Positions 3,403 to 53,471 of a stretch of DNA of 64,000 nucleotides are shown piece after piece. The notes under the pieces were generated by a model. It was not told where the DNA came from. It made no database searches and saw only the letters and a program-made list of their open reading frames with translations. The position numbers and the translations under genes were made by a program. Source of the DNA: Methanomicrobium antiquum (GTDB taxonomy: Archaea; Halobacteriota; Methanomicrobia; Methanomicrobiales; Methanomicrobiaceae). The stretch covers positions 2,046,001 to 2,110,000 of the forward strand of contig NZ_CP091092.1 in assembly GCF_029633915.1 (NCBI RefSeq), written 5' to 3'. Within the stretch, counting starts at the first letter, position 1. The number at the start of each line of letters is the position of its first letter.

Positions 3403-3485
3403 GCCGGGGTAGTCTAGTCCGGAAAGGCGGCGGCCTCGAAAGCCGTTGGTGTTTCACCTCAGGAGTTCAAATCTCCTTCCCGGCG
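3403..3485 (+). tRNA. tRNA-Ser (anticodon CGA)
   Basis: A class II cloverleaf. The acceptor GCCGGGG pairs with TCCCGGC (one G-T), the discriminator is G, and the D stem is GTCT/AGGC. The anticodon stem GCGGC/GCCGT encloses the loop CTCGAAA, so the anticodon is CGA, reading UCG. The long variable arm has a GGTG-TTT-CACC stem and the T arm is AGGAG-TTCAAAT-CTCCT. CCA is not encoded. A T-rich stretch follows and probably ends transcription. Upstream, 3364-3387 can fold into a small GCCT/AGGC hairpin. Confidence 0.95.
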
Positions 3486-4401: not shown

Positions 4402-4537
4402 CATGAAAGTCTAAAATCCCTGATAAACTTATCATCACTTTTTGTGTGATGAAAAAAGCTCATCATGTGCGTTTGTTATGAAAGTTACTTCGTAACTTAC
4501 ATGAAATTGTGCATGAAAAAAATTAATGGACGTTTTT
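4402..4537 (-). repeat. Mosaic intergenic repeat, copy 1
   Basis: Reverse-oriented member of the ATGAAA/TTTCAT hairpin family. On the minus strand it begins with the AAAACGTCCAT-type end (4524-4536), then the AAGTTAC/GTAACTT hairpin (about 4482-4498), then the TGATGAGC/TTCATCA module and the GATAA-GT-TTATC palindrome. Positions 4403-4474 are identical in inverse orientation to 53198-53269. It occupies most of the divergent intergenic region between the winged-helix regulator and the exported-protein array. Confidence 0.85.
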
Positions 4538-4572
4538 ACTATAAAGCCGGTGCACTTAGAAAAGATCGAGTC

Positions 4573-9212: not shown

Positions 9213-10607
9213 ATGAAAATTAAGGCAGTGGTAATAATAATAACAATTATTTTTTTTCTGCCTGTATCCCCTTCTACAGCTGTTGATATAACAGAACCTG
9301 TAATCATTGCAAAAAGCGATTCAGCAAGATACAATTCTATTTCATTTGACAATGACAAAGTTGCATGGATTGAATACGGATTTAATGAAGATGATTCTCT
9401 TGCAAGCTCGGTTCATTCATTTGACATAAAAACCGGAAGGCAGGAGACTGTTATAGTAGATCCTTCTGGAAAGTTTTCCCTTGATTTATCAGGTAACCGT
9501 TATGTATGGTCAGACAACCGCGGCATTTTCTTATATGACGATGATGAAAAAATTCTCACATTTCTCTATTCTGCAAATGCACAGTATAATCCGGTTATAG
9601 ACGGCGACATCATCGTATGGGAGGAAAGAGATAAAAACAGATCTTTTCTTAGAATGTATGACATCAAATCAAAAAATTACAGTGATGAAATTTTAAATCA
9701 GAAAGATTACTGTGACTATTATTATCCGGCAATTTCTAAAAACAACCTTGCATTCATTGAAAAGAACAAAAAGACTCTGGAAATAAACCTGATTTTTTGC
9801 AATCTTACATCAGGTGTTTCAACTTATGTTTCAGACCTGCCATATATCTATCAGCCTCCATCAATAGATGCCGATAAGATAGTATGGACAGGAAAAAACA
9901 AAGATGATTATTCGGTTTTTATCTATGACACAAATACAGGGGCTAAAAAAATTCTATCTGCAAAGCCCGGATATCAGATGTATCCTGATGTATCCAACGG
10001 AAATGTAGTCTGGGTATATTACAAAGATTCAGGCAGGAATTTTAGTAACGGCGGAGATATTTTTCTTTTCGATATAAATACAAATAACTGTTCAATGATT
10101 TCTCCGCCGGAGGAGAAACAGGATTTTCCAAAGGTATCTAAAGATTTCGTTGTGTGGACAGACAGAAGGGGCAGTGCACATGACATCTATCTGTATGCAA
10201 TTCCGCAAAAAACAGGAGAAATTACAGAATACACAAATTTTAATTCAGAAAATGCTTTTGTAACTCCTAATCCAACGCCTGACACAAAGGTAAGATACTA
10301 CAGCAGTCTTTGCAAAGGCGATACGCAGTGGTACTCAATTGAACCATCAGAGGATGATAAAGCGATATCCTTTGAGTTAAGGTGGAAGGATGCTGATACA
10401 AACCTTTTTTTATCGGTTGCAAGTCCTGATAATTCAATGTGGCGTTTTTCAGATGAGGATGACAATTCAAAGGATTGTTCTGTCAGGATGACAATTTCCG
10501 ATATAAAAAACAGATATTATCCAAAAAAAGCATGGACAATCGCAGTCTCCGGGGAATTTAACAACGATAACAAAACAGAAACTTTCTACGATATCTGCTG
10601 GTATTAA
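9213..10607 (+). CDS. Exported protein with TolB-like beta-propeller and C-terminal beta domain
   Basis: 464 residues, starting at the ATG at 9213 four bases after the previous stop; a weak AAGGAA lies upstream. A signal peptide (AVVIIITIIFFLPVSPSTAV) is followed by at least six propeller-like repeats with the theme [DGN]-x-[IV]-V-W, for example GDIIVWEERDKNRSFLRMYD, DADKIVWTGKNKDDYSVFIYD and KDFVVWTDRRGSAHDIYLYA. The last 100 residues form a separate domain resembling bacterial pre-peptidase C-terminal (PPC) domains, with GDTQWYSIEPSEDDKAISF. There is no C-terminal anchor. Probably a secreted binding protein acting with the three membrane-anchored paralogues upstream. The 3' end is the likely source of the 56-bp tandem array that follows. 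Confidence 0.72.
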   Translation: MKIKAVVIIITIIFFLPVSPSTAVDITEPVIIAKSDSARYNSISFDNDKVAWIEYGFNEDDSLASSVHSFDIKTGRQETVIVDPSGKFSLDLSGNRYVWSDNRGIFLYDDDEKILTFLYSANAQYNPVIDGDIIVWEERDKNRSFLRMYDIKSKNYSDEILNQKDYCDYYYPAISKNNLAFIEKNKKTLEINLIFCNLTSGVSTYVSDLPYIYQPPSIDADKIVWTGKNKDDYSVFIYDTNTGAKKILSAKPGYQMYPDVSNGNVVWVYYKDSGRNFSNGGDIFLFDINTNNCSMISPPEEKQDFPKVSKDFVVWTDRRGSAHDIYLYAIPQKTGEITEYTNFNSENAFVTPNPTPDTKVRYYSSLCKGDTQWYSIEPSEDDKAISFELRWKDADTNLFLSVASPDNSMWRFSDEDDNSKDCSVRMTISDIKNRYYPKKAWTIAVSGEFNNDNKTETFYDICWY

Positions 10608-10831
10608 GAAGATTTTGAAACGGTCTGTTTTGCCAAAATTTAGTTTTAGTCTGCCGGTATCAGGTATATTTTGATAAGGTCTGTTTTGCCCAAGTTTAGT
10701 TTTAGTCTGCCGGTATCAGGTATATTTTGATAAGGTCTGTTTTGCCCAAATTTAGTTTTAGTCTGCTGGTATCAGGTATATTTTGATCAGGTCTGTTTTG
10801 CCAAAATTTAGTTTTAGTCTGCGGGTATCAG
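10594..10831. repeat. 56-bp tandem repeat array
   Basis: Units begin with GGTCTGTTTTGCC at 10622, 10678, 10734 and 10790, exactly 56 bases apart, with few substitutions. The last unit is cut at about 10831. A half unit at 10594-10621 overlaps the last codons and stop of the propeller gene (CTGCTGGTATTAAG compared with CTGCTGGTATCAGG), so the array seems to have grown from the gene's 3' end. It fills the whole convergent gap before the ATPase stop at 10840. The units abut without spacers, so this is not CRISPR. The period is not a multiple of three, so it is not coding. Confidence 0.95.
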
Positions 10832-10839
10832 TGTTATTT

Positions 10840-12204
10840 TTACAGCCTCCCGGCAACCGCTAAAAGGTGCTTTTTAAGTTTAAGCCTGAACTCTTCTCTG
10901 TTAATTCCGGATGGCTGATGATTTTTAAATTCCATTATCCTGTCGGCTTCTGCAACTAAAATATCCATTGTTGCCGCCGCAAAAAGAACTGATGAGTCAC
11001 CAAGCTTTTGACGGTTATCCTTACAGATAACAGATAAAGGAACAACATCTTCTGACTGCATACAGTTTGGAATTAATAGATTTGTTGCAGATTTGTCTTC
11101 GTCAATAATAATAATTGATGATTTTTTTAAGAGAGCCTTTGAAAACATAGCCGCCATCCCCATCGAGCCTGAACCACGGCCTGTTACGCATTTTGGCGTT
11201 CCTGATATTCCGGGAGGAAGACTTTTGAAAAAGAGGCTGATATCTGATCCTGAAATGTCCTCTTCTGCAGATTCAGCACTCATCAAATTCGTTTTTGTAA
11301 CAACAAAACAGCGGCCGTCTCCTCTCAGGTGATCGTCAAATCCTGAACGGACTGTCTGCAGAAATGTTGATTTCCCCTCGGCATTAGATCCTGTAACTGC
11401 AAAAATCTCTTTTTTTCGGATTCCAAGTCCGCTAACAACACCTCCGGATGCCATCAGCTCCATCTCAACCGGCATAAGCTCTTTTGGAAAGAAATATGGA
11501 ATATTGCAGTTTGGATTCGGACCTGCAATCCGAAATGTTCCCCTGTATTTTGTGTAGGACCGAACCGGCCTTGTTCCGTCCGCGATGAAGGATACAAGGC
11601 CATATCTGGAAAGATTCTCTCTCATAATCTTTTGATCAAGAGATAAAAGAGCACTTCTCAAAGCCTCTTTTTTGTCAAATTGAGACACAATATCTGCAAC
11701 TGATTCAAGAAGAGCAAAAAAAATCTCTTTTGTTTCTTTTACATCTCTGACAGTCTGCCTTTCCGGATATGAAATTGCGCCTGAAAGATTCAGGCAGACC
11801 TCGTCATTGTTGCAGTAATTATTGCAGTCTGCCTTCCAAAGCCTCTGTCCTGCACCGGGCGATGTTTTGCAAAAGGTTACAGGTTCAAGATTTGAGGCAT
11901 AATCGGATGGATTTTTTGTAGCCAGTCCTGCAAGCGGGTATAATTCAGGTGTTGTTCTTATACTTTTTTTTATTTTTTCAATAAGTTCAGCAGTAAAGCC
12001 GTCCTCTCCGCCTCTTCCTTCTGAAAAATCATCTAAAATACTGCACTTTATCTTGACAGGAAAGGAAAAGATAAGCGAATTATTATTATGTGATCTTAAA
12101 AAGTAGAAATTCGAGCAATAGTTTATCTTTTCTTCGTGAAGTTTTGCATCAGGGCATTCGGCGCATTTTAGTTCAGATAACAGAGCTGACGACCAAAAAT
12201 CCAA
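10840..12204 (-). CDS. Predicted ATPase of the ABC class (PF09818-like)
   Basis: 454 residues. The C-terminal half carries a P-loop AVTGSNAEGKSTFLQTV (about 270-286), an HLRGDGRCFVVT block, and a Q/signature-like CVTGRGSGSMGMAAMFSKAL. The Walker B variant IIIIDEDKSATNLLIP (about 370-385) has the DEDxSATN form typical of the predicted ABC-class ATPase family, in contrast to the DEPT/S of transporters. The N-terminal half has several cysteines (CAECPDAKLHE, NYCSN) and is shorter than the usual family N-domain of about 550-residue homologues. There is no transmembrane partner. Role unknown; nucleic-acid binding has been shown for distant relatives. Confidence 0.75.
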   Translation of the reverse strand: MDFWSSALLSELKCAECPDAKLHEEKINYCSNFYFLRSHNNNSLIFSFPVKIKCSILDDFSEGRGGEDGFTAELIEKIKKSIRTTPELYPLAGLATKNPSDYASNLEPVTFCKTSPGAGQRLWKADCNNYCNNDEVCLNLSGAISYPERQTVRDVKETKEIFFALLESVADIVSQFDKKEALRSALLSLDQKIMRENLSRYGLVSFIADGTRPVRSYTKYRGTFRIAGPNPNCNIPYFFPKELMPVEMELMASGGVVSGLGIRKKEIFAVTGSNAEGKSTFLQTVRSGFDDHLRGDGRCFVVTKTNLMSAESAEEDISGSDISLFFKSLPPGISGTPKCVTGRGSGSMGMAAMFSKALLKKSSIIIIDEDKSATNLLIPNCMQSEDVVPLSVICKDNRQKLGDSSVLFAAATMDILVAEADRIMEFKNHQPSGINREEFRLKLKKHLLAVAGRL

Positions 12205-12350
12205 TTTTTCACCTGTTATATTCTTTATTGTTTTTCTAAAACAATAATTTAATTCCAGTCACCTAAAGCTAAAAAAAGAATAAAATTAAGTCAGCCTTTA
12301 AAATTTCAGGTTATAAAAAGGTATAAAAAATTTGTTGATTTGCTATCAAT

Positions 12351-12411
12351 GTTAACTCGTAACTTATATGAAACTGTTTTTTTCATAAAATATATTTTTT
12401 AATGGATGTTT
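12351..12411 (-). repeat. Mosaic intergenic repeat, degenerate copy 2
   Basis: Matches the reverse-oriented elements with substitutions: a worn GTTAC-CGTAAC hairpin (12351-12364), TATGAAACTG, TTTCAT and the end AATGGATGTTTT next to the stop codon of the unknown gene at 12412. No full distal module is present. Confidence 0.55.
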
Positions 12412-12780
12412 TCAGCTAAAAATCATATCTTTTATATTCATTGTCTTCATTGAATCATCAGTCATTATAAAAGCAACTCCCCACCTGTCTGTTGCAAGGA
12501 CAGACTGTTCTTCAAGCTCCTTGGTCAAAGGATGATATGAACTGATATTTTTTAAATCCACAATTTCTTCCAGATTTCTCTCCTCCTCAAATTCATCTTT
12601 TAACATTGAAAGAACTTTTTGCATCTCCTCAAAATATGACATCAGCTTAAATGATGTTCCGTCAAATTTTACAGGATCCCATTTTTTAATTAAATCAGCA
12701 AGGATAATTATATACTCATCAAGCTTCTCCTTTGAAAAAAGAGTTCTGTCATCCCAATAAATCGCTTTTAATTTCGCCAT
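12412..12780 (-). CDS. Small acidic protein of unknown function
   Basis: 122 residues, mostly helical and acidic (FEEMQKVLSMLKDEFEEERNLEE), with a short beta-like end DRWGVAFIMTDDSMKT. No membrane segment or recognised motif. On the minus strand an AAGGAGA sequence lies about 10 bases before the ATG, supporting the start. It ends beside a repeat copy. The regular codon use and the Shine-Dalgarno make it a likely real gene; no function can be offered. Confidence 0.6.
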   Translation of the reverse strand: MAKLKAIYWDDRTLFSKEKLDEYIIILADLIKKWDPVKFDGTSFKLMSYFEEMQKVLSMLKDEFEEERNLEEIVDLKNISSYHPLTKELEEQSVLATDRWGVAFIMTDDSMKTMNIKDMIFS

Positions 12781-13604: not shown

Positions 13605-13808
13605 AAAAAAACGTTCATGAAACTAATTTTTCATGCAATGTTTCATGAAAATCAGATTTGGTTTTCATGGTAAAATGTAAAACCCAATTTTTTTTCATGC
13701 ATGATTATATGTAAATCACAAAGTGATTTTCATAATAAACGCACATGATGAGCTTTTTTCATCACACAAAAAGTCTGATAAGTTTATCCGGAATTTTGAC
13801 TTTCATAG
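13605..13808 (+). repeat. Mosaic intergenic repeat, copy 3 (long)
   Basis: One of the longest copies. It starts AAAAAAACGTTCATGA (13605-13620), followed by an ATGAAAATC/GGTTTTCAT hairpin and then TTTCATGC. The next hairpin is AAATCAC-AAA-GTGATTT, which replaces the usual AAGTTAC-GAA-GTAACTT with both strands changed together. The TGATGAGC module, GATAA-GT-TTATC and terminal TTTTGACTTTCAT follow. It fills the gap between convergent genes. Confidence 0.9.
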
Positions 13809-13859
13809 CAACGTTTGTGATACTATTTTTATTTTTTATTTTATTTTTAAGAGGGCCGG

Positions 13860-17446: not shown

Positions 17447-17670
17447 AAAAAACGTTCATGAAACAAATTTTTCATGCACAGTTTAATGAAAATCATGATT
17501 TGATTTGTTATGAAAGTCAAAATTCCGGATAAACTTATCAGGCTTTTTGTGTGATGAAAAAAGCTCATCATGTGCGTTTTACATGAAAGTTACTTCGGAA
17601 ACTTACATGAAACCGGTGCATGAAAAAAATTATCATGGACGTTTTCATGGTAAATGATACCATGAAAAAT
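17447..17670 (-). repeat. Mosaic intergenic repeat, copy 4 (composite with terminal inverted repeats)
   Basis: The left end AAAACGTTCATGAAAC through TTTTTCATGC (about 17450-17478) and the right end GCATGAAAA through CATGGACGTTTT (about 17618-17645) are imperfect inverted repeats of about 28 bases. Between them are the ATGAAAATCA-type stem, the GATAA-type palindrome with CTTTTTGTGTGATG, the TGATGAGC module and the variant stem AAGTT-ACTTCGGA-AACTT. A further hairpin CATGGTA-AATGA-TACCATG (17646-17664) is attached. It lies between divergent genes. The inverted ends make it look like a small non-autonomous element. Confidence 0.88.
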
Positions 17671-17912: not shown

Positions 17913-17915
17913 GCT

Positions 17916-17953
17916 AAAAACGTTCATGAAATTATCATTTCATGGACGTTTTA
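17916..17953. repeat. Minimal palindromic repeat, copy 5
   Basis: A near-perfect palindrome AAAACGTTCATGAAA-TTATCA-TTTCATGGACGTTTT: both element ends joined with only a six-base loop, one G-T mismatch. It starts a few bases after a stop codon and may act as a terminator hairpin. It looks like the family's minimal unit. Confidence 0.85.
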
Positions 17954-18018
17954 TAGCAAATAAGTTTCATAGATACTATAAATCTCAAATATAAAATATA
18001 AATTAAATATACGGAGCA

Positions 18019-19026: not shown

Positions 19027-19098
19027 TTTTACATGAAAATTATTTCGGAAACTTACATGAAACAATTAGCATGAAATGATAATTTCATGAACGATTTC
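19027..19098 (-). repeat. Mosaic intergenic repeat, copy 6
   Basis: Reverse-oriented copy: TTACATGAAAA, a worn AAATTATTTCGGAAACTT hairpin, ACATGAAACAATTAGCATGAAA and the end TTTCATGAACGATTTC. It lies between the ATPase and permease genes of one transporter, so it must be transcribed through or separate two promoters. Confidence 0.8.
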
Positions 19099-19137
19099 AG
19101 AAAAATTAAAAATTTTTAAGACAATTCAGGGACAAAT

Positions 19138-21289: not shown

Positions 21290-21424
21290 AAAAAACGTTC
21301 ATCATAATTTTTTATGCAATCTTTTCATGTAAGTTACGAAGTAACATTTATAGCAAAGCCCCATGATGAGCGTTTTTCATCACACAAAAAGCCTGATAAG
21401 TTTATCCGGAATTTTGACTTTCAT
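21290..21424 (+). repeat. Mosaic intergenic repeat, copy 7
   Basis: Forward copy starting AAAAAACGTTCATCAT, then TTTTCATGTAAGTTAC-GAA-GTAAC, the ATGATGAGC-GTTTTTCATCA module, GATAA-GT-TTATC and TTTTGACTTTCAT. It starts nine bases after the DUF362 stop. Confidence 0.9.
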
Positions 21425-21527
21425 TGCAAAAGATAAAATTTAAAAAAAGCCGGATGACAGAGATAAAAAAGGTAAAAAAGGTAAAAAAGAATAATAACTG
21501 GGATAAAAACTTCAGACAAGTGATAAA

Positions 21528-22100
21528 ATGACAGATGTTATAATACTAAATGCAAGTCCGAGAGAAAGCGGAAATACACATATTTTATGTAAGGAGTGTG
21601 CAGATGCAATTGAAAAAACAGGGCTTAGCACCCATATTATTTCATTTCGGGGCAAAAACATAAAATCCTGTATTGCCTGCAACTCCTGTAAGAAAAACAC
21701 CGGCAGATGTGCAATTGATGATGACGGATTAAACGAAATTATAGATGAGATTAAAGACGCAAAAGGCCTTATTGTTGCATCTCCGGTCTATTTCGGAACA
21801 GCGAGAGGAGACCTTATGTCGGCAATACAAAGAATATCAATGGTCTCATACGGCGGTGACAGATTCCTCTCAAAGATGGTCGGAGGGCCTGTAGCGGTTG
21901 GAAGAAGAGGAGGTCATACTGCTACAATCCAGGAGCTTTTGATGTTTTATTTCATAAACGATATGATTGTCGCAGGTTCAGACTACTGGAATATCGCTTT
22001 TGGAAAGGCAAAAGGCGAAGTTTCAGAAGATGAGGAAGGACTCTCAACCGTCAGGAAGTTTGGCGAAAACGTAAGTTTAATCATTAATTCTCTTCAATAA
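21528..22100 (+). CDS. Iron-sulfur flavoprotein / NADPH-dependent FMN reductase family
   Basis: 190 residues. The N-terminal flavodoxin fold has the FMN phosphate loop LNASPRESGNTHILCKE (6-22) and the second loop ASPVYFGTARGDLMS (about 85-99). A cysteine cluster CIACNSCKKNTGRC (about 46-59) matches the compact motif of methanogen iron-sulfur flavoproteins, which bind FMN and one 4Fe-4S cluster and shuttle electrons, sometimes to oxygen or peroxide. A GTGAT sequence precedes the ATG. Its stop codon abuts a mosaic repeat. It follows the DUF362 ferredoxin but is separated by 246 bases, so co-transcription is uncertain. Confidence 0.9.
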   Translation: MTDVIILNASPRESGNTHILCKECADAIEKTGLSTHIISFRGKNIKSCIACNSCKKNTGRCAIDDDGLNEIIDEIKDAKGLIVASPVYFGTARGDLMSAIQRISMVSYGGDRFLSKMVGGPVAVGRRGGHTATIQELLMFYFINDMIVAGSDYWNIAFGKAKGEVSEDEEGLSTVRKFGENVSLIINSLQ

Positions 22101-22161
22101 AAACGTCCATGATAATTTTTTTCATGCACGATTTCATGTAAGTTACGAAGTAACTTTCATG
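22099..22161 (+). repeat. Mosaic intergenic repeat, copy 8
   Basis: AAAAACGTCCATGAT at the flavoprotein stop, then TTTTTTTCATGC and TTTCATGT-AAGTTAC-GAA-GTAACTT-TCATG. The stem is perfect. The distal TGATGAGC and GATAA modules are absent. Confidence 0.88.
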
Positions 22162-22720
22162 TAAATATCATAATTTCTGAATCTTAAATCTTTTTTTTAG
22201 ATGCAAACAGGCATTGAAAAAGCCAAATGCCGGGCATCTGAAGAGATTTAAAATAGATTTGAAGACGAAAAAAAGAAATTACAATAAATCTGAAAAAACT
22301 AAAAACAAAAGACTCATAAACCGTATTTGAGTTTATGGACCTTGTGATTGTGAAATAAAAACAATTTTGTGTGATTTTTTTTTAATGACCGCTGATGTCA
22401 CCGAAACTTTTCAAAGTATTTTAAAAAAACGTTCATGAAACAAATTTTTCATGCAATGTTTAATGAAAATCATGATTTGATTTTCATGGTAACTTATAAA
22501 AACTTTAAAAAATGTTTTGGGTACAAATGACGAATTTTTCCTGAGAAATACACATTAATATAAAGAAAACACTCCCTTTTTGAGAAGATATCAAACGAAA
22601 AGAGAGATGATACACTTAAATTATAAATGGCTAAATTATGAGGATCTAAAAAAAGGCTTAAAAAGTAAACTAATTTAATTTGGGATAATAATCCCGAAAT
22701 TTTTTTCCAGCTTTCAAAAA
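22162..22720. other. Gene-free stretch holding one repeat copy
   Basis: About 560 very AT-rich bases without a convincing gene. It contains repeat copy 9 (22424-22491). A small GGGAT-TATT-ATCCC hairpin (22682-22695) sits just past the stop of the minus-strand gene at 22721 and could mark its 3' end. I see nothing else in it. Confidence 0.6.
22424..22491 (+). repeat. Mosaic intergenic repeat, copy 9
   Basis: AAAAAAACGTTCATGAAAC, TTTTTCATGC and the perfect ten-base stem ATGAAAATCA-TGATT-TGATTTTCAT. It shares this pair of modules with the left halves of copies 3 and 4. Confidence 0.88.
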
Positions 22721-28590: not shown

Positions 28591-29039
28591 AAGCCGCCAG
28601 AAGATGTATTTAGAGTGTTAATATGGATAAACCTTTGCGGTCAGGAGGGTCAATACAATAAAATAAACATATATCACCACATTTTAGAAAAATATCCCAT
28701 ATTTTTAAAAGATAATGAAATAATTATCACCTTTGACTGAAAATGACCAAAGACTAAAAATGAAAACCATATTAGAAAATAAAATCTTTAATTAAAAATA
28801 GAATTGTATTAAATTGTTATCAGGTTTTTATCAAATTTTTATCAGGTTCTTATAAATAATTATCAAATTTAACCAAATTTAACCAAATATTTACCATTCA
28901 GGTATCCTGTATCAAAATTTTGATTACTTTTGCATCAAAGTATTGTATCAAAGTATTGTATCAAAATATTGCATCAAAATATTGCATCAAAATATTGCAT
29001 CAAAATATTGCATCAAAAACTGATTTTGTTAATAAATTT
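28591..29039. other. Gene-free AT-rich stretch with short repeats
   Basis: Divergent leader of the kinase, then low-complexity sequence with TTATCA-rich runs (28817-28870), two copies of ATTTAACCAA, and the 13-bp tandem array recorded separately. No ORF here is believable. Confidence 0.6.
28929..29019. repeat. 13-bp tandem repeat array
   Basis: Seven head-to-tail copies of ATTGCATCAAAAT-like units (starting 28929, 28942, 28955, 28968, 28981, 28994, 29007); the central ones are identical and the outer ones carry one or two changes. It sits just past the stop of the gene at 29040. The Lys/Ile-rich ORF that crosses it is an artefact. Confidence 0.93.
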
Positions 29040-31367: not shown

Positions 31368-31400
31368 AAAAAAGGTTTTTCATCTTTTATCACAGTATCT

Positions 31401-31480
31401 CATCATTTATCTCAAGTATTTCATCATTTATCTCAAGTATTTCATCATTTATCTCAAGTATTTCATCATTTATCTCATCG
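31401..31480. repeat. 21-bp tandem repeat array
   Basis: Three exact copies of CATCATTTATCTCAAGTATTT (31401, 31422, 31443), a cut fourth copy from 31464 and a degraded copy before 31400. The array runs into the stop codon of the minus-strand gene at 31475. The serine/isoleucine-rich ORFs across it are artefacts. Confidence 0.93.
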
Positions 31481-35640: not shown

Positions 35641-35657
35641 TAACCCCACCAAAAAAA

Positions 35658-35970
35658 CAGGGACACGTAAGAAGGTGGGAATTACGTGCCTGAACTTTAT
35701 GCATTTCCCCTTCTCCACCCTGCAACCCCTGTGGGCACCAGACGCTTACGGTAAGTCTGCTCCCTTCCGGGCCTGAACCGGTCCCCGCAATAAAAGGTAT
35801 CAATTCCCTCCGGAATCTCAATTGCTCTACGCTGATCTCACAGGACAAGGCTTCGCAGTCGGGGAAGATGCACTCAGGACAGGTCGCCAAAGCCGCTCTT
35901 CAAACTTCGTCCCCCGCATAACGGCGGTTTCAGGTAACAGGTGACGCCTAACCACCCGGACTAGTCCCCA
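35658..35970 (-). ncRNA. ffs: Signal recognition particle RNA (7S RNA)
   Basis: On the minus strand the conserved helix 8 core CAGGCCCGGAAGGGAGCAG occurs near 35760-35785 and the Alu-like start GGGTGGTTAGGCGTCACCTG near 35940-35957. Outer ends pair (GGGGAC at 35964-35969 with GTCCC at 35660-35664, and GGTGG with CCACC), as does TGCATCTTCCCC with GGGGAAATGCA of helix 5. A T7 run at 35651-35657 follows and should end transcription. The length of about 310 fits archaeal SRP RNA. Ends are approximate. It scaffolds SRP19 and SRP54 for co-translational targeting. Confidence 0.93.
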
Positions 35971-35984
35971 ATATAAATGGGGAC

Positions 35985-38547: not shown

Positions 38548-38690
38548 AATAATAATTCAAATAATATTTGAATAATAATTTGAATGTCAATCTTAGTAAT
38601 GATTTAAATGATAATTTAAAGAGCGTTGATGAAATAAAATGAAATGATCTGGATTTTATTTGGATTTTAGATCAAATTCAAATTGAATTT
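38548..38690. other. AT-rich palindromes before a repeat copy
   Basis: Contains TTCAAATA-A-TATTTGAA (38557-38573), a perfect palindrome about a centre base, and CAAATTCAA-A-TTGAATTTG (about 38673-38691) of the same form. These could end transcription of the gene at 38143. Confidence 0.4.
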
Positions 38691-38769
38691 GCATGAAAGT
38701 TACTTTATAACTTACATGAAACTGATATGAAACTTTTTTTCATGAAACAAAATTTCATGGACGTTTTTA
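38691..38769 (-). repeat. Mosaic intergenic repeat, copy 10
   Basis: GCATGAAAGTTA-CTT-TATAACTTACATGAAAC, then TTTTTTTCATGAAAC and the end TTTCATGGACGTTTTT. Its last base is followed at once by the GTG start of the methyltransferase, so the repeat forms that gene's whole 5' leader. Confidence 0.87.
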
Positions 38770-39429: not shown

Positions 39430-39489
39430 TATCTAAAAAAACCCGGATAATATCCAGTAACAGATTGAGGCCATTACTTTCAGGATATT

Positions 39490-39556
39490 ACATGAAAGTT
39501 ACTTCGTAACTTACATGAAACAGTTAGCATGAAAAAAATTATCATGGACGTTTTTT
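39490..39556 (-). repeat. Mosaic intergenic repeat, copy 11, overlapping a coding end
   Basis: ACATGAAAGTTAC-TTC-GTAACTTACATGAAAC, then GCATGAAAA and the end TCATGGACGTTTTTT. On the minus strand the end AAAAAACGTCCATGA supplies the last codons and stop of the IMPACT-family gene at 39542. Confidence 0.9.
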
Positions 39557-39925: not shown

Positions 39926-40015
39926 TAAAGAGATTTATTAAATTAACAATAAAGATACTTTTTTGTTTCATATGCCAGGCTTGAATTAGTCATTTCTTTT
40001 TGGCATTTGTTTCAC

Positions 40016-40090
40016 AAAAACGTTCATGATATTATTTTCATGCAAACAATTTCATGTAAGATTTCATGTAAGTTATGAAGTAATTTTCAT
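40016..40090 (+). repeat. Mosaic intergenic repeat, copy 12
   Basis: AAAAACGTTCATGAT, TTTTCATGC, two TTTCATGTAAG starts, then the stem AAGTTAT-GAA-GTAATTT, which keeps pairing through two G-T pairs, and TTTTCAT. It lies between the IMPACT-family gene and the tRNA-Met promoter region. Confidence 0.87.
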
Positions 40091-40120
40091 TTAGAAATTT
40101 AAAAAAAAGCAATTTTTACA

Positions 40121-40262: not shown

Positions 40263-40334
40263 GGGCCTGTAGCTTAGTGGTGGAGCGCCCGGCTCATAAC
40301 CGGGCGGTCATGCGTTCGAATCGCATCAGGCCCA
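40263..40334 (+). tRNA. tRNA-Met (anticodon CAT; elongator, or tRNA-Ile2)
   Basis: Acceptor GGGCCTG pairs with CAGGCCC, discriminator A. The anticodon stem CCCGG/CCGGG holds the loop CTCATAA. The T arm is ATGCG-TTCGAAT-CGCAT. It lacks the three G-C pairs placed as in an initiator, so it is an elongator tRNA-Met or an isoleucine tRNA whose C34 is modified to agmatidine; the bases alone do not decide. No CCA is encoded. Confidence 0.95.
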
Positions 40335-40944: not shown

Positions 40945-41055
40945 CAGGATAAATCCAGATAGAACATGAAACTTCTTAAATTTAGTGCAAAAATCATTTA
41001 AATAATAAATAATCCCTCCTGTAAAAAAAAGAGTCCAGGCTTTTTTTTATGTTTA

Positions 41056-41122
41056 CCATGAAAATCAAATTATGATTTTCATTAAAAAGTCCATGAAAAA
41101 TTTGTTTCATGAACGTTTTTTT
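41056..41122 (-). repeat. Mosaic intergenic repeat, copy 13
   Basis: CATGAAAATCA-AATTA-TGATTTTCAT with a perfect ten-base stem, then GTCCATGAAAAATTTGTTTCATGAACGTTTTTTT. It lies in the divergent gap between the HEAT gene and dys. Confidence 0.88.
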
Positions 41123-42774: not shown

Positions 42775-43298
42775 TGAGATGACCCGTTCTGAAATAAGCC
42801 GGTATTATTTCCAGTATTACTTAACGTAAGTACAGGCATACAGGCAGTGATGAACCCTATGAGTCGCCTGAGGCGATATTAAATCAATACAAAATTATTC
42901 AGAATAATTCTAAATTATTCAAACTATCCAAAATTTCAAACAAGTCAAAAAAATAAAAATTAAAACCAAAAAAATAAAAATTAAAACCAAAAAAATAAAA
43001 ATTGAAAATAAAAATTAAAACCGTAAAAAAAGAAAAATTTTCAGATTTTGAAATTCTTTTAAACCTAAATTTGTTTTCTCAATTTAGAAAGTGGAGATTT
43101 TTGGATTTCTTAATTTTGATTCCTTTAATTTTGCTTTGCTGGCTTATTTTGTCGCTTCCCTGAATTATCAGACTTTTTGAACTGAATTTTTTTCCAATAT
43201 ATTCCAACAATATTTATTTAACCAATTGAATAAGTGACTTTTTAATCGGTTTTACCTGTGTTTTTTCTAACTGTTTTAATTAATTATTTAGAATCAAA
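42775..43298. other. Gene-free stretch with short repeats
   Basis: Holds box C/D-like motifs just after pyrF (see findings), a small GTCGCCTGAGGCGAT hairpin (42863-42877), and two exact copies plus partial copies of a 21-base A-rich unit TAAAACCAAAAAAATAAAAAT (42961, 42982). The rest is T-rich sequence before the minus-strand gene's stop. No coding frame. Confidence 0.55.
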
Positions 43299-53071: not shown

Positions 53072-53130
53072 ATCAGCAAATAAAGAATTATCAGATATAA
53101 GAAGACTTCAAAAAAAAGCATCTGTTAACT

Positions 53131-53270
53131 AAAAACGTCCATGATAATTTTTTTTATGCTAACTGTTTCATGTAAGTTACGAAGTAACTTTCATAGCAAA
53201 CGCACATGATGAGCTTTTTTCATCACACAAAAAGTGATGATAAGTTTATCAGGGATTTTAGACTTTCATA
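53131..53270 (+). repeat. Mosaic intergenic repeat, copy 14
   Basis: Full forward element: AAAAACGTCCATGAT, TTTTATGC, TTTCATGTAAGTTAC-GAA-GTAACTTTCAT, the CACATGATGAGC module, TCATCAC/GTGATGA stem, GATAA-GT-TTATC and TTTTAGACTTTCAT. Positions 53198-53269 are identical to the inverse of 4403-4474 over 72 bases, 48.7 kb away. Confidence 0.92.
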
Positions 53271-53471
53271 ACAAATTATGTAAAAGCCTTTTTGAATTGA
53301 AAAGAGATGAAAAATTTATGCGAAAAATTAAGCAAAATAAAAGTTTAAACTTATAATCTTCTAATTTAAAAATTCGAACCAAATCCTTAAAATCTCAAAT
53401 TAAAATCCAGAGCATAAAAATCTAAATCAAAATCTAAATTTAAATCTAAATCTAAACTTCAAACGCTGGAA

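Follow-up and report, generated by a model that had tools for sequence, protein, structure and literature searches.

The chromosome of the archaeon Methanomicrobium antiquum (Methanomicrobiaceae; 2,438,126 bases) contains at least 172 copies, as identified by a covariance model, of a two-hairpin repeat that is probably a non-autonomous miniature mobile DNA element, with its fold selected in the copies that transpose. The hairpins matter, but the covariation within them is no proof that the repeat functions as RNA. In the mechanism that we favour, an enzyme supplied in trans would read the folded hairpins, as single-stranded or cruciform DNA, by their shape over their stem sequence, and only lineages with pairing kept would continue to spread; once inserted, most copies are probably free of selection and lose their stems by decay. 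We infer that selection acts on the DNA rather than on a transcribed transposition intermediate.

Structure, subfamilies and distribution of the repeat

The repeat unit is approximately 62 nt long and consists of two adjacent hairpins. Hairpin 1 (CGTYCATGAAA-loop-TTTCATG) has a stem that opens with C-G, directly 5′ of which lies an unpaired CGTC or CGTT tag. A variable linker with GTTT at its end leads to hairpin 2 (TTTCATGTAAG..CTTTCATG), which has a conserved T.T mismatch at mid-stem (T43 in 96 % and T61 in 98 % of copies), and the unit tail is CACCGG/CTAACTG, among others. Symmetric CATGAAA/TTTCATG boxes recur in the repeat, 1–4 nt from the unit ends; near-terminal palindromes are present and long terminal inverted repeats absent. 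A third module of 74 bp (module C) often lies directly 3′ of hairpin 2, beginning after an A-run, and was preceded by hairpin 2 in 60 of 78 cases and by another module C in 10. The repeat is built, then, of a modular head and a tandemly repeatable body. Some copies have no linker and fused hairpins (L305 3510–3564, L322 3485–3542 and L251 12176–12232), which looks like the outcome of a deletion between two TTTCATG repeats.

Three main types of hairpin 2 stem define the subfamilies S1 (AAGTTAC/GTAACTT, 136 own-genome copies), S2 (AAATCAC/GTGATTT, the nearest type for 22 copies, mostly full-length elements) and S3 (AAATCAT/TTGATTT, 13 copies). S2 is the predominant stem type in the sister genus Methanolacinia. 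Identical cores were found at four to eight unrelated loci, and such identity at up to eight loci suggests a recent spread of the repeat.

Among 100 related genomes, the covariance model matched nine, from five genera that all belong to the Methanomicrobiaceae; the genomes of other families of the order in this set gave no match. Nor was the repeat matched in the viral contigs, phages and plasmids that were searched. A limited literature search returned no description of it, which is weak evidence of novelty. One genome of 3.2 Mb (G016, genus g7) has only two copies, at L251 6250–6318 and 12176–12232, in opposite orientation and 5.9 kb apart; they flank SepSecS-like, Cys/Met, alpha/beta hydrolase-CBS and ThiI genes, and one of them is nearly identical to the main type of M. 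antiquum. Transfer of the flanked block is therefore possible. As L256 2746–3229 of Methanolacinia shows, the unit can also be embedded in a larger, composite repeat between genes, some 500 bp long, which has dozens of partial relatives in a second Methanolacinia genome, G013.

The window, that is, the whole 64-kb stretch analysed here, contained 13 matches to the 17-mer AAGTTAC-GAA-GTAACTT and its variants (up to three mismatches), against 0.25 expected by chance. Two-hairpin elements of S1 type were found with the covariance model at 4472–4538 (−; also by stem match), 21290–21357 (+), 22098–22166 (+, without module C), 38688–38769 (−, with a longer linker), 39486–39556 (−, 84.9 bits) and 53130–53200 (+). 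Comparison with the C consensus places a module C beside three of these, at 4403–4471 (−), 21362–21431 (+) and 53201–53273 (+), respectively, for the elements at 4472, 21290 and 53130. The model also detected S3-type elements at 17447–17515 (+), 22424–22493 (+) and 41052–41121 (−), a diverged two-hairpin element at 12339–12414 (−, 49.6 bits) and a palindrome with the first hairpin only at 17915–17960 (+, 41 bits). At 13606–13674 (+, 74.9 bits) lies a complete two-hairpin element with an S3-like stem (AAAATC..GGTTTT). It is followed at 13677–13739 (+, 43.4 bits) by a copy that has the stem AAATCAC/GTGATTT in hairpin 2 and has lost the left arm of hairpin 1; a module C (13740–13812, +, 94.5 % to the C consensus) continues directly from there, starting at the A-run.

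Insertion sites and probable mobility

The repeat unit was shown to be present or absent alone, as one block, between two sister species of Methanolacinia. At locus L254 of Methanolacinia petrolearia (G007), the two flanks of one copy adjoin each other in G013, a net difference of 64 nt, with the insert at AAAAAA, before GCCGCG. At L256, near 11736–11805, the occupied site reads GATATAAAA, unit, AAAAGATC and the empty one GATATAAAAAAGATC; this insert was placed by eye, as the BLAST alignment splits the gap. The flanks at both empty sites were 93–96 % identical between the sister species. In principle, either difference could be an exact loss in G013, not a gain in G007. The locus L213 was tried as a further empty site and discarded: a 280-bp array is absent there in two relatives, and the locus is too rearranged for exact ends to be read.

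Insertions occurred in the context TTTT-N4-AAAAA, with the unit 3′ of the A-run. This context, in which positions −13 to −10 are rich in T and −5 to −1 are A, is common to both genera: T stood at −11 in 85 % and A at −4 to −2 in 97–100 % of 139 own copies, and in 62 copies of relatives T reached 60–69 % at −12 to −10. No target duplication beyond two to four A's was found at the empty sites or in the copy flanks, where both ends are A-rich, and word sharing between left and right flanks with A's excluded averaged 4.67, against 4.50±0.10 in permutations. As the unit ends and the target both consist of A's, the exact ends and a duplication of up to about four A's are unreadable. At two loci of this genome, a 28-nt derivative comprising the first hairpin was nested in an S3 element, at its AAAA.

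With these two Methanolacinia sites, their empty counterparts and the insertion context, the identity of the mover of small transposase-free archaeal repeats becomes directly testable.

Covariation and the question of an RNA function

The earlier note had singled out a stem at 13711 as a case of compensatory change. The bases are as it described: AAATCAC (13713–13719) and GTGATTT (13723–13729) enclose AAA (13720–13722), and relative to AAGTTAC/GTAACTT both partners are altered at two pairs (G-C to A-T and T-A to C-G). The double change is not local, however, for the same stem marks subfamily S2. Because the copy carries the S2 stem together with a decayed first hairpin, the change was inherited, and the best explanation is that the stem derives from lineage S2, with no compensation event at that locus.

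Covariation was found when we ran our own R-scape-like test (FastTree phylogeny, parsimony substitutions, redistribution on branches and a background-corrected G statistic). The alignment comprised 263 copies (172 from the own genome, 91 from relatives; reverse-strand shadows removed), taken from the sequence stretches around copy sites. In the 255 distinct copies, three pairs covaried, and they ranked first among all column pairs in the order 48:56, 46:58 and 17:22. Under a branch-preserving null, their E values over 20 pairs were 0, 7e-4 and 3e-3, respectively, and under a harsher null 0.01–0.05. Pairs 48:56 and 46:58 are exactly the two changes seen at 13711, and 17:22 belongs to the other hairpin. 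Three covarying pairs are few, and the lineages split by one hairpin 2 pair are largely those split by the other. Copies from other genomes showed a both-sided change in 16 of 19 pairs (7.1 in shuffles) and had 93 % paired cells, a signal that was lost when the partners were slid by one to three columns. Taken together, the tree-based covariation and the both-sided changes in other genomes indicate that the fold is kept across lineages.

The claim that the fold, and not just the sequence, is kept thus stood between subfamilies and genera, and failed within S1 once pair 46:58 was set aside. Own-genome S1 copies without this pair had 1255 paired cells, against 1254.1±1.8 under independent decay of the arms. 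In individual S1 copies, pairing decays, and there is no per-locus maintenance apart from pair 46:58.

A folded single strand tolerates G.T and not A.C, whereas mutation of duplex DNA yields both equally, at mirror-image sites. The '40064' copy (40015–40096, +; stem match and covariance model) does have the stem AAGTTAT-GAA-GTAATTT with two G.T pairs (40070–40086), and from such pairs it had been argued that G-T tolerance points to RNA. The counts do not support that argument: single transitions in S1 that keep a G.T pair numbered 46, and those that break pairing to A.C numbered 61. In the inner second stem of S1 the figures were 18 and 16, and with one clade-dominated pair removed from the S1 transitions they were 43 and 36 (P=0.5). 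Orientation was likewise even: where the neighbouring genes are co-directional, 43 copies ran with the gene direction and 42 against it, and 39 copies lay between genes that converge and 40 between genes that diverge. An apparent strand skew among the pattern matches listed was an artefact, as the minus-strand places listed were incomplete.

It is accordingly unlikely that the hairpins act in RNA, as terminators, mRNA stabilizers or processing sites, with the fold selected locus by locus. Such a role would agree with the strong predicted RNA folds of the consensus on both strands (−18.7 and −21.1 kcal/mol), with the covariation between genera and with a post hoc count at the two covarying pairs only, where G.T intermediates outnumbered A.C by 10 to 2. 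It is at odds with the missing overall G.T bias, the even orientation and the S1 pairing that is no better than independent decay, and an Rfam search of the window gave no family match for the repeat, returning only an SRP RNA and two tRNAs. A UUCG-type tip was rejected as evidence for RNA. The copy at 17577–17647 (−; stem match and covariance model; module C at 17504–17576, −, by C consensus comparison), designated '17590' and having a CCGAA loop, does read CTTCGG on the + strand as had been noticed, but an unpaired A.A adjoins it. The variant recurs in two further own-genome copies, one in the window (19027–19099, −, CCGAA loop, covariance model) and one at genome position 513374, and therefore represents a small lineage, to which it is confined, rather than a special tip.

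The transition counts, orientation and arm decay favour mostly unselected copies together with selection on spreading lineages. The repeat offers a worked case in which covariation of a dispersed repeat would arise from selection on the copies that spread rather than from a role of each single locus, and as such it is a pitfall for covariation-based RNA discovery.

Alternatively, the palindromes might be double-stranded sites bound by a chromatin protein or another dimeric DNA-binding protein, having spread and been retained for that function. The recurring CATGAAA/TTTCATG boxes and a symmetry that survives base changes fit such sites, but the inner stem varies (AAGTTAC, AAATCAC, AAATCAT) with complementarity kept, unlike a fixed recognition sequence, and sister species differ in copies at single sites; we consider this reading very unlikely.

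Candidate mobilizing enzymes and likeness to known elements

The closest parallels to a transposing hairpin unit are the palindrome-associated transposable elements (PATEs) and small mobile repeats of Haloquadratum walsbyi, which are archaeal and transposase-free, with strain- or species-specific insertions, near-terminal palindromes and a short 5′ targeting sequence that is constant, and without detectable duplication (PMC3119063). The PATEs are related to IS605-type transposons, and in one strain every IS200-type gene is a pseudogene (PMC3119063). The present repeat differs in its length of about 62 nt, its abutting hairpins, its A-run with an upstream T-tract and its modular tail. A search of the copy-rich genomes for a Y1 transposase with matching ends found none, nor was a related IS found.

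The two hairpins might serve an IS200/IS605-type (Y1, single-stranded) system as its left and right recognition hairpins, the unit being a minimal PATE that targets AAAA and is cleaved on the right at a similar site. Two near-terminal hairpins, the lack of a detectable duplication, a constant 5′ targeting oligonucleotide and the conserved mid-stem T.T mismatch are all in keeping with this, and the first-hairpin-only forms resemble repeat-mediated core deletions; these traits are shared by the Haloquadratum PATEs (PMC3119063). We nevertheless find it doubtful, as the Y1 transposase (PF01797) was absent from the own genome and from G001, G004, G006, G007, G013 and G019, the Y1 loci of G009, G011 and G016 contained no copy of the repeat, and the preferred context is gapped and spans about 12 nt, compared with the 4–5 nt targeting sequences of IS605-type elements. 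The Y1 transposase was rejected as the mobilizer on the first two of these grounds. An autonomous version, in which hairpins 1 and 2 would enclose a gene, was also sought and discarded: at 28 first-hairpin sites beyond the first copy list, the immediate 3′ sequence belonged to a copy that was ordinary, decayed or fused and gave no hint of a transposon inside, and the interval 2003098–2003723 comprises two separate copies with non-repeat sequence in between.

Returning to a non-autonomous mobile element, it is possible, and we put this forward tentatively, that the hairpin-dependent unit of about 62 nt is active, or recently was, without Y1, and is moved by an enzyme new for such elements that reads hairpin shape and the gapped TTTT-N4-AAAAA; arrays would grow because the unit ends in an A-run that the next module follows.

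The repeat behaves like small non-autonomous elements and fits no single one of the PATE, REP, BOX and MITE families. CGTC-tagged REPs such as dRS3 and RPE, which are listed for bacterial phyla, are likewise short intergenic palindromes of high copy number with a CGTC/CGTT tag 5′ of the stem and no known dedicated transposase, but they are single hairpins of 20–40 bp whose stems start A-T, T-A and whose tail is mostly CCA (PMC3733652). Here, the stem starts with C-G and the full unit always has a second, different hairpin. The BOX elements of Streptococcus pneumoniae are similarly modular and interspersed, with a hairpin head, a tandemly repeatable module and predicted stem-loops, and have terminal inverted repeats, target duplications and IS-like ends (PMC3049150), none of which was found here; no sequence kinship was seen. 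With classical MITEs, the repeat shares short length, AT-richness, non-autonomy, foldability and presence or absence at otherwise identical sites. It departs from them in that the inverted CATGAAA box close to each end is only weak, and in that neither a clear duplication nor a parent IS was found, the transposase search being for Y1 (PF01797).

Other features of the window

The archaeal SRP RNA lies at 35657–35971 (−) and the tRNA genes at 3403–3485 (+) and 40263–40334 (+), the latter just downstream of the repeat copy at 40015–40096. Short tandem repeats occupy 10594–10873 (56 bp unit), 28917–29020 (13 bp), 31373–31477 (21 bp) and 42946–43029 (21 bp). Between 4630 and 10607, four ORFs of roughly 500 aa each follow one another, the first of them without a Pfam match.
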